From Succinivibrio dextrinosolvens (lineage in GTDB: Bacteria; Pseudomonadota; Gammaproteobacteria; Enterobacterales; Succinivibrionaceae): a DNA stretch of 64,000 bases. The stretch lies in contig NZ_CP047056.1 of NCBI RefSeq assembly GCF_011065405.1, positions 2,378,747 to 2,442,746 of the forward strand, written 5' to 3'. A program made the translations under genes and the position numbers. The notes under the pieces were generated by a model that had not been told where the DNA came from, did no database searches, and saw nothing but the letters and a program-made list of their open reading frames with translations. Shown here piece after piece: positions 58,214 through 62,996 of this stretch (positions are counted from its first letter, which is position 1; every line of letters begins with the position of its first letter).

Positions 58214-58238
58214 CTGACATGCCAAAGTGCACTATAGC

Positions 58239-58273
58239 GGTTGTCGCGTATCCTAACGGGCTTTGCGACAGCC
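58239..58273 (+). promoter_or_regulatory. Alpha-operon leader hairpin
   Basis: GGTTGTCGC (58239-58247) pairs with GCGACAGCC (58265-58273), one G-T pair, 37 bases before rpsM. In E. coli S4 represses the operon by binding a pseudoknot at this place; similar control is possible here. Confidence 0.5.
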
Positions 58274-58310
58274 TTTGTTTTAAACCGACCTATGTTATAG
58301 GAGATCAATA

Positions 58311-58667
58311 GTGGCCCGTATAGCTGGCATTAATGTGCCTGATCAGAAGATCGCCGTGATTGCTTTACAGTCAATCTATGGTATCGGCCCAACCCGCGCT
58401 AGCGAAATCTTAGCTAACGCTGGTGTTGATGAGTATGCTAAGTTAAAAGACTTAGATGAGACTGTCATCGACAAGATTCGTGCCGAAGTTGGTAAGTTCA
58501 CCGTTGAAGGTGACTTACGCCGTGAAATTTCTATGAACATCAAGCGCCTAATAGACTTAGGTACTTATCGTGGTTTACGTCACCGCAGAGGTTTACCAGT
58601 ACGTGGTCAGCGTACTAAGACTAATGCACGTACTCGTAAGGGTCCACGTAAGAGCATTAAGAAGTAG
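58311..58667 (+). CDS. rpsM: Ribosomal protein S13
   Basis: 118 residues from GTG 58311, with AGGAG upstream. [12 protein letters not shown] start and [20 protein letters not shown] tail (key: RGLPVRGQ) are typical. It lies in the 30S head and contacts tRNA. First gene of the alpha operon. Confidence 0.96.
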
Positions 58668-59776: not shown

Positions 59777-60769
59777 GTGTCTGTTGTTGAACTACTAAAG
59801 CCAAAGCCAGTTGATTATAATGAAATCAGTCCAAATCATGCACGTTTAGTGCTTGAGCCTTTGGAGCGTGGTTTCGGTTATACTCTTGGTGTAGCTTTAA
59901 GTGGAATTTTACTAAAGACCCTGTCTGGAACAGCGATTGATGCATTCCAGATGGCGGGCGTAAAGAATGTAAACAGCAAAAAGGATGATCTTGTTGAAAG
60001 TATTTTCGAAGTGGTTATGAATTTAAAATCACTTGCAATTACTTCAAAAGAGCCTCTTACTGAGCCTGTTTGGTTAACAATTGAGAGACGTGGCGAGGGA
60101 GAAGTTCATGCTTCTGACATCGTATGTCCTGAAAATTTATCATTTGTTGACCCTGAAGCCCGTATTTGCACTTTAAAAGGTGCCAAGGCTTCGTTGTCGA
60201 TGAAACTTCGCATTACCTCAGGTTGTGGCTATGCTACAACCACCTCTGAGGACCATGTACCTGCCGAGTCAGAGGACGTTATTCTGATTGATGCTAACTA
60301 CTGCCCAGTACGTCGTTACGTATATGAGGTTGAGTCAGCTCGTGTTGAACAGCGTACAGACTTAGACAGATTAGTCATTGATATGGAAACCGATGGAACT
60401 ATTGCTCCAGAGGTTGCCTTAATGAAAGCTTCTGGCCTGATCTGTGACAGCATGGTAAATCTGGTTGATAAGGAAGAAATCAGTGAGAGAGTTGTTACTC
60501 CAGCTGCTCCTCCTATGCCAGATCCTGTTTTAATGCAGCTTGTTGATGATTTAGAGCTTACTGTTCGTTCAGCAAACTGCTTAAAGGCGGAGCAAATCAT
60601 TTACATCGGCGATTTGGTACAAAGAACAGAAGTTGAACTTCTAAAGACTCCAAATCTAGGTAAGAAGTCATTAAATGAAATTAAGGATGTTCTTGCTCAG
60701 AGAAATCTGTCTTTAGGTATGCGTGTGGCTAACTGGCCTCCTGCAGGACTTCGTGTGCCAAACAAATAA
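59777..60769 (+). CDS. rpoA1: RNA polymerase alpha subunit, first paralogue (diverged at the beta-binding surface)
   Basis: 330 residues, GTG start at 59777. It sits where rpoA normally lies, between rpsD and rplQ. The N-terminal domain keeps [12 protein letters not shown] and [21 protein letters not shown], as in E. coli (residues 29-40 and about 188-210). It has lost others: E. coli ALRRILLSSMPG is [12 protein letters not shown] here (Arg45, needed for binding beta, is Gly43), HEYSTKEGVQED is [12 protein letters not shown], and GIGPVT is GEGEVH. The C-terminal domain ([29 protein letters not shown]) keeps the DNA- and activator-binding residues. It probably serves as the beta-prime-side alpha in a heterodimer with the second paralogue at 61270-62259. 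Confidence 0.95.
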
Positions 60770-60790
60770 CTGTTTTAGAAGGAATTAAAA

Positions 60791-61189
60791 ATGCGTCATC
60801 GTTTAAGTGGCCGTCATTTAGGTCGTACTTCAGCACATCGTGCTGCTCTGTACCGTAACCTAGCTAAGGCATTAATCACTTACGAAGTAATCAAGACCAC
60901 TGTTCCTAAGGCTAAGGAACTACGTCGCTTCGTTGAGCCATTAATCACTCTAGCTAAGGTTGATACTGTTGCTAACCGTCGTTTAGCTTTTGCTCGTCTT
61001 CGTGACGATGCAGTTGTAGCTAAGCTTTTCACTGTTATTGGTAAGCTATCTGCTAACCGTAACGGCGGCTACACCCGTATCTTAAAGGCTGGTTTACGTG
61101 CATGTGATAGAGCACCAGTTGCTTACATCATGCTAACTGACCGCCCAGAAGTTGCTGAAGAGTCAAAAGATTCATCTGCAGCTGAATAA
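60791..61189 (+). CDS. rplQ: Ribosomal protein L17
   Basis: 132 residues; [17 protein letters not shown] start and [10 protein letters not shown] core are typical. It normally ends the alpha operon; here a second alpha-subunit gene follows. Confidence 0.96.
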
Positions 61190-61197
61190 AAATCCTG

Positions 61198-61222
61198 ATG
61201 GGCGCTGTTTAACTGCGCCCAT
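61198..61222 (+). terminator. Hairpin between rplQ and the second alpha gene
   Basis: ATGGGCGC (61198-61205) pairs with GCGCCCAT (61215-61222) and is followed by TTAGATTTTC, a poor T-run. It may be a partial terminator, an RNA processing site or the relic of the old operon end. Confidence 0.6.
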
Positions 61223-61269
61223 TTAGATTTTCTAGCTTACTAACTGTACTTAAAAACGAGGGTGAGACC

Positions 61270-62259
61270 TTGGATCAGATCATTGATTCTATTAAGCCAA
61301 ACATAAAAGATGTTACTGAGCTTTCTCATAATATAAGCCGTGTAATTCTTGAGCCATTTGAGCCACACTATGCTCAAATTGTAGGCACAGCACTCCGTCG
61401 TATTATGCTGTCCTCTATTCCTGGATATGCCATCACCGCAGTTGAAATTGATGGTGTAGTGCATGAATACAGTGCAGTAGAAGGCATACAAGAAGATATT
61501 CTTCTTATTCTTTTAAATTTAAAAGAAGTTGCTGTAGCTGCTGAAGGAATGCTAAGAGATGAACCAGTTCTTCATATTAGAAAGAAAGGCATTGGCCCTG
61601 TAACTGCAGGTGATATTCAGTGTCCTGCTGGCATCGAAATTAGAAATCCTGAGCAGATCATCTGTCATCTGACAGAAGAAAACAAAGAACTTAATATGCA
61701 CCTTCACGTAACCCGTGGTCGTGGATATGTTCCTTCAGTAAATCATCCACACGTAGATGGCACTGAAGAAAGATTTATTGGTCGTCTACTGATTGACGCT
61801 TCTTACTGCCCAGTATTAAATGTTGCAGTTCACACTGCACCACTAGCTGACAAGAAAGAGCAGTTAATCCTAGACATCGAAACCAACGGAACAATTGATC
61901 CAAAGAATGCAGTTGGCATTGCTGCAACTATTTTTGCTGATCAGTTAAATTCATTCGTTGACATCAGAAATTCTGTAGCACCTGCTGAAGATGCTTCATT
62001 CCGTCCTCTAATCGATCCTAAGTTGATCTGTCCTGTTGAGGATCTAGAGTTAACTGTTCGTTCAGCTAACTGCTTGAAGACTGAAGGCATCAAATACATT
62101 GGTGATCTTGTACAGAAGACTGAAGTTGAGCTTCTTAAGACTCCAAATCTTGGTAAAAAATCACTTACTGAGATCAAGGACGTTCTTGCAGAGAGAGGAT
62201 TATCTCTTGGTATGCGCCTAGAGAACTGGCCTCCAGCAGAGCTTGATTCAATAATGTAA
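61270..62259 (+). CDS. rpoA2: RNA polymerase alpha subunit, second paralogue (retains beta-binding surface)
   Basis: 329 residues, TTG start at 61270 with GGTGAG upstream. It follows rplQ by 80 bp. The conservation is the mirror image of the first paralogue: [12 protein letters not shown] (equivalent of E. coli Arg45 kept), [37 protein letters not shown] and AATIFADQL are all standard. But the segment [12 protein letters not shown] is [12 protein letters not shown], and E. coli [21 protein letters not shown] is [19 protein letters not shown], two residues shorter. The C-terminal domain is standard ([29 protein letters not shown]). It probably serves as the beta-side alpha in a heterodimer. 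Confidence 0.95.
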
Positions 62260-62269
62260 TTTTCAAATG

Positions 62270-62293
62270 GCCGCATTTTTATGCGGCTGTTTC
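62270..62293 (+). terminator. Terminator of the alpha operon
   Basis: GCCGCAT (62270-62276) pairs with ATGCGGC (62281-62287), followed by TGTTTC. It comes right after the second alpha gene, so that gene is inside the operon. Confidence 0.8.
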
Positions 62294-62441: not shown

Positions 62442-62996
62442 ATGTATAAGAATATTGAATTAAACCTTGCATACAGAGCTTTTACCGGTGGGCCTATGAT
62501 TTGTATTTTCACAAAATCTAAGGATGGTGTGCCAAACGGTATGAGTGCAGCATGGAATTGTCCTTTTGATACAGATGAACTTATTCTAGTTCTAGATAAG
62601 GGACATACAACTGCAGAAAACATCAGAAACGGCAGCAAGATTGTTGTAGCTATACCAAGTTCAAATCAGATCCCTGAAATCCTTAAGCTAGGTTCCGTAC
62701 ATGGCAGAGACTGTTCTGTGAACAAGTTTGTAAAGCAGCAGGTTGAAACCGAAGATTCTGAGCTCTTTAAGATGCCTGTAATCAAAGGTGCTTTAGCATA
62801 CTTTGAGTGTGAGCTTAATGATAAGGCTCTGTTCGAGGATAAAGGTATCTGTCTTGTAAAGGTTAAGAACTGCTATGTTCAGGAGAATATGTGGGATGAG
62901 GCTTCTAACAGCTTCAAAAAAGGCTGTCTGAACAGCCTCCACCATGTATCAGAGGCAGTATTCTGTACCGGCGGAGAACTAGTTTCAAATGATTGA
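62442..62996 (+). CDS. Flavin-reductase-like domain protein
   Basis: 184 residues, FMN-binding split-barrel fold (flavin reductase-like, PF01613). PNGMSAAWNCPFDTDE (about 31-46) corresponds to the FMN-binding stretch. Such proteins reduce flavin or bind FMN as electron carriers in anaerobes. Reaction here is unknown. Its stop overlaps the next gene by 8 bp, so the two are probably co-translated. Confidence 0.8.
   Translation: MYKNIELNLAYRAFTGGPMICIFTKSKDGVPNGMSAAWNCPFDTDELILVLDKGHTTAENIRNGSKIVVAIPSSNQIPEILKLGSVHGRDCSVNKFVKQQVETEDSELFKMPVIKGALAYFECELNDKALFEDKGICLVKVKNCYVQENMWDEASNSFKKGCLNSLHHVSEAVFCTGGELVSND

Follow-up and report, generated by a model that had tools for sequence, protein, structure and literature searches.

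Bacterial RNA polymerase is an alpha2-beta-beta-prime enzyme with two identical alpha subunits; what, then, would a bacterium do with two different ones? This question is raised by a stretch of 64,000 nucleotides (the window) from Succinivibrio dextrinosolvens (contig NZ_CP047056.1, positions 2,378,747 to 2,442,746), a member of the Succinivibrionaceae, which are gut bacteria. At the window end the alpha operon reads rpsM-rpsK-rpsD-rpoA1-rplQ-rpoA2, just as a preliminary description of the sequence had stated, and the two open reading frames that flank rplQ both pass alpha subunit models. We consider it very probable that in the group of genera to which the window belongs (clade B) the polymerase contains an oriented RpoA1-RpoA2 heterodimer, in which RpoA2 sits on beta and RpoA1 on beta-prime, and that this state evolved stepwise after one duplication.

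Two full-length alphas and the surfaces that each has probably lost

RpoA1 and RpoA2 both score above the cut-offs of the NCBI rpoA equivalogs NF003513 and TIGR02027, and each has the three Pfam alpha domains (dimerisation, insert and C-terminal) of a full-length alpha. In the single-contig genome of 3.47 Mb, PF01000 matches only these two proteins, with no third rpoA, and there is one rpoC and one rpoB (the latter as two matches within one frame of 1513 codons). Two diverged alpha genes therefore accompany single beta and beta-prime genes, the arrangement that characterizes Francisella. RpoA1 of the window is 99% identical to RpoA1 of S. dextrinosolvens DSM 3072 and ACV-10.

The surfaces in question are known from E. 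coli alpha, where R45A blocks and L48A weakens the formation of alpha2-beta. Beta protects residues 30-55 and 65-75, and beta-prime protects 175-185 and 195-210; binding of beta-prime is hurt by changes at 86 and 173 and by insertions at 180 and 200. In the dimer contact, residues 35, 38 and 39 of one alpha face residues 46, 50 and 227 of its partner (PMC3294249). A search for further literature on E. coli alpha contact residues gave nothing useful among the matches listed.

The family was sampled with 56 genomes from 14 genera, which were searched for PF01000, and surveys reached up to the class. Among the genera with two copies, g6, g7, g8 and g11 constitute clade A and the other eight, the window among them, clade B. 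A position was called conserved if it was kept in at least 90% of 49 single alphas (22 from the order, 20 from the class, 6 from the family, and E. coli), which gave 87 positions in the N-terminal domain. After removal of rows affected by contig ends or a broken start (G005 copy 1; G011, G015 and G017 copy 2), 36 RpoA1 and 35 RpoA2 were used for clade B and 8 of each for clade A.

In clade B, 18 conserved positions are lost only in RpoA1 (R44, R45, S49, S50, H66, E67, Y68, G73, D77, L82, L83, I168, G169, L171, I223, Q227, L228 and F231) and 16 only in RpoA2 (R33, G34, G36, T38, L47, Y185, V187, A190-T196, L198 and D199); another 5 are lost in both copies, 30 in neither, and 18 are mixed. The separation is sharp at key residues. 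R45 is present in 0/36 RpoA1 and 35/35 RpoA2 (the window included) and Q227 in 5/36 and 35/35, and the opposite is true for T38, R191 and T196, each kept in 36/36 RpoA1 and 0/35 RpoA2. At position 200, RpoA1 has R in 35/36 rows, and RpoA2 mostly has Q, R or A. The 34 copy-specific losses fall into 6 runs, and as few were obtained in 0 of 100,000 shuffles; complementarity sits in blocks, not in single residues.

In the window itself, RpoA1 reads ALSGILL where E. coli has ALRRILL, and H66-E67-Y68 and E72-G73 are gone, so the losses around Arg45 and in HEYS..EGVQED that had been claimed for RpoA1 are indeed there. A claimed loss of GIGPVT did not hold up: only the less conserved positions 107, 109 and 111 are changed, and the window retains G106, G108 and V110, as do 94-97% of clade B RpoA1. 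In RpoA2 of the window LERGFGHTLG is replaced, and a four-residue deletion runs across VEQRTDLDK.

Judged by the E. coli surfaces, much of what binds beta would thus be missing from RpoA1, and part of what binds beta-prime from RpoA2. That RpoA2 keeps the beta surface, as had been proposed, is not correct at 33-38, which are lost although they lie inside the beta-protected segment 30-55. Because this stretch includes 35 and 38, we read its loss as half of the dimer contact; together with the RpoA1 losses at 50, 227, 228 and 231 it would fit a split contact. The half that would remain is largely kept in clade B: RpoA1 has F (25) or Y (11) at 35, T (36) at 38 and L (27) or I (9) at 39 (n=36), and RpoA2 has I46 in 35, S50 in 34 and Q227 in 35 of 35 rows. 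The mirror half is changed in both genes. Both genes having changed the same half of the contact is what a standing heterodimer would produce.

Fold models built from 18-row alignments have good N-terminal domains, and their top matches are E. coli alpha chains. In a Foldseek comparison, the two models preferred opposite chains in 7/7 E. coli entries that had both alpha chains in both lists. In 6/7 of them the first-named chain is the better fit for RpoA2 and the second-named for RpoA1; in 8y5l it is the other way round. We give this direction little weight, as what the chain names stand for is our assumption, the models rest on 18 sequences with weak C-terminal domains in the RpoA1 model, and RpoA1 also fits a first chain, 8sy6_A, closely.

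Coordinates of the two alpha genes, their changed or kept segments and other elements of the locus
Feature	Position	Strand	Remarks
rpoA1	59777..60769	+	330 amino acids, GTG start; open reading frame, NCBIfam and Pfam alpha models, copy 1 clade (100/99); predicted beta-prime-side alpha
RpoA1 segment, E. coli 40-55	59888..59935	+	S and G in place of R44 and R45; K in place of S49, T in place of S50
RpoA1 segment, E. coli 65-83	59963..60019	+	H66, E67, Y68, E72, G73, D77, L82, L83 lost
RpoA1 segment, E. coli 220-233, dimer helix	60428..60469	+	I223, Q227, L228, F231 lost
rpoA2	61270..62259	+	329 amino acids, TTG start; open reading frame, NCBIfam and Pfam alpha models, copy 2 clade (100/99); predicted beta-side alpha
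RpoA2 segment, E. coli 33-39, half of alpha-alpha contact	61363..61383	+	R33, G34, F35, G36, T38, L39 lost
RpoA2 Arg-Arg, E. coli R44-R45, beta contact	61396..61401	+	kept
RpoA2 HEYS..EGIQED block, E. coli 66-77	61462..61497	+	kept
RpoA2 segment, E. coli 185-200, beta-prime side	61828..61863	+	conserved residues lost, four-residue deletion
rplQ (ribosomal protein L17), between both alpha genes	60791..61189	+	open reading frame
Alpha operon ribosome binding site RF00140, before and into rpsM	58229..58343	+	63.9 bits, gathering score 38
G+C-rich hairpin without T-run, between rplQ and rpoA2	61198..61222	+	
Terminator-like hairpin 3' of rpoA2	62265..62292	+	consensus match only

The C-terminal domains tell a different story from the N-terminal ones, with 81% identity between RpoA1 and RpoA2 of the window as against 33%. 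R265, N268, C269, G296, K298, S299 and E302, seven residues that we take to be the relevant DNA contacts, are invariant across the 87 rows of the two copies, as is T285-E288. Fixed differences in the C-terminal half (more than 70% in each copy) occur only at 245-255, in the linker; below this rule, position 258 in clade B is E in 34/35 RpoA2 and D in 24/36 RpoA1. In a tree of the C-terminal domains, copy 1 and copy 2 each form one clade (95/90 and 98/85), which rules out recent gene conversion of these domains. Because of the separate clades and the shift at 258 the C-terminal domains of RpoA1 and RpoA2 are not interchangeable. However, these sequences do not suggest a new role with activators, and the idea of two non-identical C-terminal domains for activators finds no support, given the 81% identity and the seven common DNA-contact residues.

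Elsewhere, the open frames of rpoC (1499 codons) and rpoB (1513 codons) presumably exceed the E. coli lengths and may hold lineage inserts. A frame of 184 amino acids downstream of rpoA2 (62442-62996) has relatives in the same stretch at 8 loci of genus g1 (window included); g3 (43%) and two genomes of clade A (28-31%) have one there too.

One old duplication and its probable stages in the family

Twelve of the 14 genera hold 49 genomes, and two PF01000 matches were found in 45 of these; G015 has one match, 41 bases from the start of a contig, and no match was obtained in G003, G070 or G072. The single-copy genera are g5 (one match in 5/5 genomes) and g10 (one in G027, none in G079). Wherever both copies are on one stretch, rplQ lies between them (44/44 genomes), and in G005 the copies are on two contigs. 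Other families of the order have one match in 24/24 genomes. In the metagenome-assembled RUG260 (G011) the 5' frame of rpoA2 is broken, by an assembly error or a real change.

A tree of N-terminal domains (69 rows: 20 of 45 copy 1, 20 of 46 copy 2, 6 single-copy members of the family, 22 from the order, and E. coli) places copy 1 in one clade and copy 2 in another (100/99 each), and both divide identically into clade A and clade B. The single-copy genera fall outside the two copies with moderate support (95/78 for the copies joined). On the evidence of this tree, rpoA was duplicated once, in the ancestor of the 12 genera, giving rpoA-rplQ-rpoA. Separate duplications in clades A and B are ruled out, as each copy is one clade with mirrored halves. 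A block duplication of rpoA-rplQ would be expected to leave an rplQ remnant after rpoA2, and we therefore looked for one; tblastn gave no match in up to 800 bases downstream (several loci were shorter). The ratio of nonsynonymous to synonymous substitutions (dN/dS), calculated on the N-terminal domain for 11 species pairs, does not exceed 0.16 in either copy, indicating purifying selection and ruling out that either is a pseudogene or a relaxed copy.

Clade A (INTERMEDIATE) shows a partial division. Its RpoA1 keeps R44, R45, L48, S50, Q227 and F231 (8/8 each), together with most of the ARVEQRT block; S49, E72, G73 and V74 are lost, and position 46 is C in 6/8 and V in 2/8. Its RpoA2 keeps G36 and T38 (8/8) and F35 (7/8) and has lost R33, G34, A190, R191, E193, Q194, T196 and D199. 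R45 is kept in RpoA2 as well (8/8), so there is no Arg45 split in clade A, and the dimer contact is nearly intact. RpoA1 of clade A may still form a working homodimer.

The signals between the genes also differ. Using a rule of a stem of at least 5, at least 3 G-C pairs and 6 T in 8, applied to the whole gap after rplQ, a T-run terminator was found in 6/6 single-copy, 7/8 clade A (8/8 if 2 G-C pairs suffice) and 3/36 clade B genomes. A promoter-like site matching 11 or 12 of 12 positions precedes rpoA2 in 5/8 clade A and 0/36 clade B genomes. These sites are TTGACA-17-TATAAT in G024 and TTGACT-16-TATAAT in all four g11 genomes, and only 0-4 of 200 shuffles were as good. The only clade B site rarely matched by shuffles is that of G068 (10 of 12; 1/200), and in the window no good match to a promoter was found for rpoA2. 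In at least some clade A genomes rpoA2 looks like a transcription unit of its own, and in clade B it looks like a member of the operon, a contrast that rests on the single split between the clades and is one event seen many times. The single operon of the preliminary description is therefore likely for clade B; in clade A a terminator and, in 5/8 genomes, a strong promoter-like site lie ahead of rpoA2. The hairpin between rplQ and rpoA2 in the window might be a worn-down terminator of the ancestral operon. Just before rpoA2 (61256-61272), GAGGGTGxxACC followed by TTG recurs, as judged by eye, in most clade B genomes, and the rest of the gap varies.

Start codons were assigned as the ATG, GTG or TTG closest to the E. 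coli start. Single rpoA genes start with ATG in 48/48 cases. In contrast, rpoA1 starts with GTG in 36, TTG in 8 and ATG in 1 (n=45), and rpoA2 with TTG in 43 and GTG in 1 (n=44). In Francisella alpha1 has GTG (3/3) and alpha2 ATG (3/3). The weaker GTG and TTG starts would fit a halved need for each alpha in a heterodimer.

A second bacterial lineage with the same division

In the class survey, at least one match was found in 349/369 genomes; as the 20 genomes without any match include nearly complete ones, the search misses some. Besides the window's genome, four genomes have two matches. Three of them belong to one genus with the copies at distant loci, and one alpha of this genus aligns end to end with the alpha1 chain of Francisella in 6wmp (625 bits), in line with the earlier statement that Francisella has two alphas at separate loci. 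The fourth, G292 from another gammaproteobacterial family, has two alphas of ordinary appearance on different contigs; one of them sits at the end of its contig, and contamination is a possible cause.

Francisella alpha1 and alpha2 heterodimerise in vitro, homodimers barely form, and alpha1 alone is weakly active (PMC3294249). Like RpoA2, alpha1 keeps Arg45 and HEYS and lacks ARVEQRT; like RpoA1, alpha2 lacks Arg45 and HEYS and keeps RTDLD. Among the positions that are copy-specific both in clade B and in the three Francisella genomes, 17/20 go in the same direction (Fisher p = 0.0055). Scores agree: RpoA1 obtains 190 bits on alpha2 and 158 on alpha1, and RpoA2 204 bits on alpha1 and 144 on alpha2. 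G36A and T38I are common to alpha1 and clade B RpoA2. However, alpha1 shares new residues with clade B RpoA2 at 8/22 positions, barely above the 5/20 with clade B RpoA1, and the likeness is one of pattern, of what is kept and lost, more than of new letters.

We favour convergence between Francisella and the Succinivibrionaceae on two grounds: a single alpha is found in the sister genera and in the rest of the order as far as it was sampled, and at none of 13 positions (70% conserved in single alphas) where both Francisella alpha2 and clade A RpoA1 have changed is the new residue shared. It is unlikely that the likeness is due to descent, with Francisella alpha2 acquired from a relative of clade A RpoA1, even though a free tree sets alpha2 inside clade A RpoA1 (96/89) and this placement persists without the 58 split positions (93/80, and 97/96 for its grouping with all RpoA1). 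The alpha2 branch is about 3 changes per column long, and none of three alternatives is rejected by approximately unbiased (AU) tests: a Francisella-only pair (p = 0.458), an RpoA1 clade without alpha2 (p = 0.522) and a clade of the family copies (p = 0.453).

Weighing the proposed oriented heterodimer against its rivals and known systems

After the duplication, RpoA1 and RpoA2 would have divided the asymmetric work of an identical alpha pair. RpoA2, with Arg44/45, HEYS and EGxQED kept and the 190-199 block near the beta-prime footprint lost, would have become the holder of beta. RpoA1 would have become the holder of beta-prime, with the 190-199 region kept and, in clade B, Arg45 and most of HEYS/EGVQED lost. 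With the dimer contact split (RpoA1 keeping mainly 38, also 35/39; RpoA2 keeping 46/50/227; the mirror contact changed in both), an RpoA1 homodimer would be expected to fail on beta, an RpoA2 homodimer on beta-prime, and both would pair poorly. The clade B polymerase would consequently be RpoA1-RpoA2-beta-beta-prime in a fixed orientation, and the cell would need a single molecule of each alpha per enzyme where a homodimer takes two of the same, in keeping with the weak starts. Clade A would represent an earlier stage, in which rpoA2 is, at least in part, its own transcription unit, the two alphas both carry Arg45 and the dimer contact has hardly changed. Contacts to beta-prime in RpoA2 and part of the beta surface in RpoA1 would have been lost before Arg45 and the dimer contact, and before operon fusion.

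The genes, their distribution, the trees, the losses, the assigned start codons and the sequence signals are direct observations, and from them we infer the heterodimer, its orientation, its stoichiometry and its expression. The sides assigned in the preliminary description, RpoA2 for beta and RpoA1 for beta-prime, are backed by the losses and by the Francisella split; its "obligate heterodimer" finds support as a heterodimer rather than two homodimers, and "obligate" is better taken as a presumption. Several observations weigh against the oriented heterodimer. The kept half of the contact is not untouched (clade B RpoA1 has Y for F35 in 11/36 and I for L39 in 9/36), the beta contact L48 is kept in 35/36 clade B RpoA1, K86 has been retained by RpoA1 and RpoA2 alike, and the copies cannot be told apart at V173 and V180. 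Residues 186-194 sit between the two beta-prime footprints of PMC3294249, not inside them. The losses of the two copies overlap at 5 positions (7.1 expected, p = 0.30), which is chance-like, so that the "mirror image" once claimed for RpoA2 is valid for the blocks but not position by position, and p values are overstated since neighbouring positions are not independent. The agreement of clade A with Francisella is weaker (10/12, p = 0.06), and adding Francisella to the free tree breaks up the single clade of copy 1.

Two separate polymerases, (RpoA1)2 and (RpoA2)2, between which the cell switches for regulation, would explain why both copies are retained and selected and why both keep the seven checked DNA-contact residues. 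They are nevertheless very unlikely, as in clade B Arg45 is missing from every RpoA1 and R191 and T196 from every RpoA2, rpoB and rpoC are single, and the fixed C-terminal-half differences lie in the linker. That one alpha alone works in the polymerase and the other decays or moonlights is hardly credible: RpoA1 of the window is indeed further from E. coli in the N-terminal domain (43% identity compared with 50% for RpoA2), but dN/dS is low in both copies, both occur across 12 genera and neither keeps all assembly surfaces. A serious though still doubtful candidate is a mixed state in which heterodimers dominate and some enzyme still comes from one of the homodimers, that of RpoA1 in clade A and perhaps that of RpoA2 in clade B. 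The beta and dimer residues and most of the ARVEQRT block that clade A RpoA1 keeps speak for it, as does the weak activity of Francisella alpha1 alone (PMC3294249). The clade B losses on both sides and at the dimer contact speak against it, and the clade A RpoA1 losses at S49, E72, G73 and V74 suggest that beta binding is already weakened there. The mixed state would be a milder form of the oriented heterodimer and not its opposite.

We are moderately confident that living genera preserve the steps from a homodimer to an obligate oriented heterodimer, with one alpha in g5 and g10, then clade A, then clade B, that this is a second, probably independent bacterial case, and that division of the assembly surfaces without regulatory gain may have fixed it. 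The order of these steps is open to test, since the family still contains genera with a single alpha, genera with a partly divided pair and genera with a fully divided one. If the oriented heterodimer is true, each clade B polymerase has two distinguishable alphas in fixed positions, and the promoter roles of the beta-side and the beta-prime-side alpha could be addressed in a native enzyme.

Multiple rpoA genes are on record for Psychromonas, Leptospira, Chloroflexus and Streptomyces avermitilis (PMC3294249). Six Psychromonas pairs are, unlike the copies described here, 86-100% identical (97-100% in five, 86% in MB-3u-54), and both copies keep ALRR. In the excerpts of PMC3294249, a 2011 survey of 1055 genomes names other rpoA duplications and none in the Succinivibrionaceae, and those of a 2026 review (PMC13374769) mention neither Francisella nor the Succinivibrionaceae. 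Searches for Succinivibrionaceae or Anaerobiospirillum with rpoA found no report, and the papers listed for Succinivibrio together with the polymerase alpha subunit concern the rumen; few subscription papers were covered, and an unseen report is possible. Those for rpoA duplication, two rpoA or alpha heterodimers gave, among the matches listed, the work on Francisella and, on plastids, PMC4834550. The tandem pair spanning rplQ accordingly appears, within this coverage, not to have been described before, as had been supposed.

Archaeal Rpo3/Rpo11 and eukaryotic Rpb3/Rpb11 likewise divide a symmetric scaffold into two subunits, of which the second has no C-terminal domain. In these pairs the subunit on the beta-like side is the larger; its partner is far smaller, and other small subunits are required as well (PMC3294249). 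RpoA1 and RpoA2 differ from them in that both are full-length alphas with a C-terminal domain, and we do not claim shared descent. Francisella is the closer precedent, and is the one exception that we found described; a second lineage that splits the same blocks alike would point to a repeatable outcome. The alpha genes of Francisella, however, lie at separate loci (PMC3294249; distant also in our genomes) and not around rplQ, and its C-terminal domains have diverged (alpha2 has N at 261 and V at 273), whereas those of the Succinivibrionaceae are close. In the Succinivibrionaceae, the Arg45-bearing alpha is the downstream gene, and a pair that spans rplQ and has a living intermediate in clade A is what this family adds.

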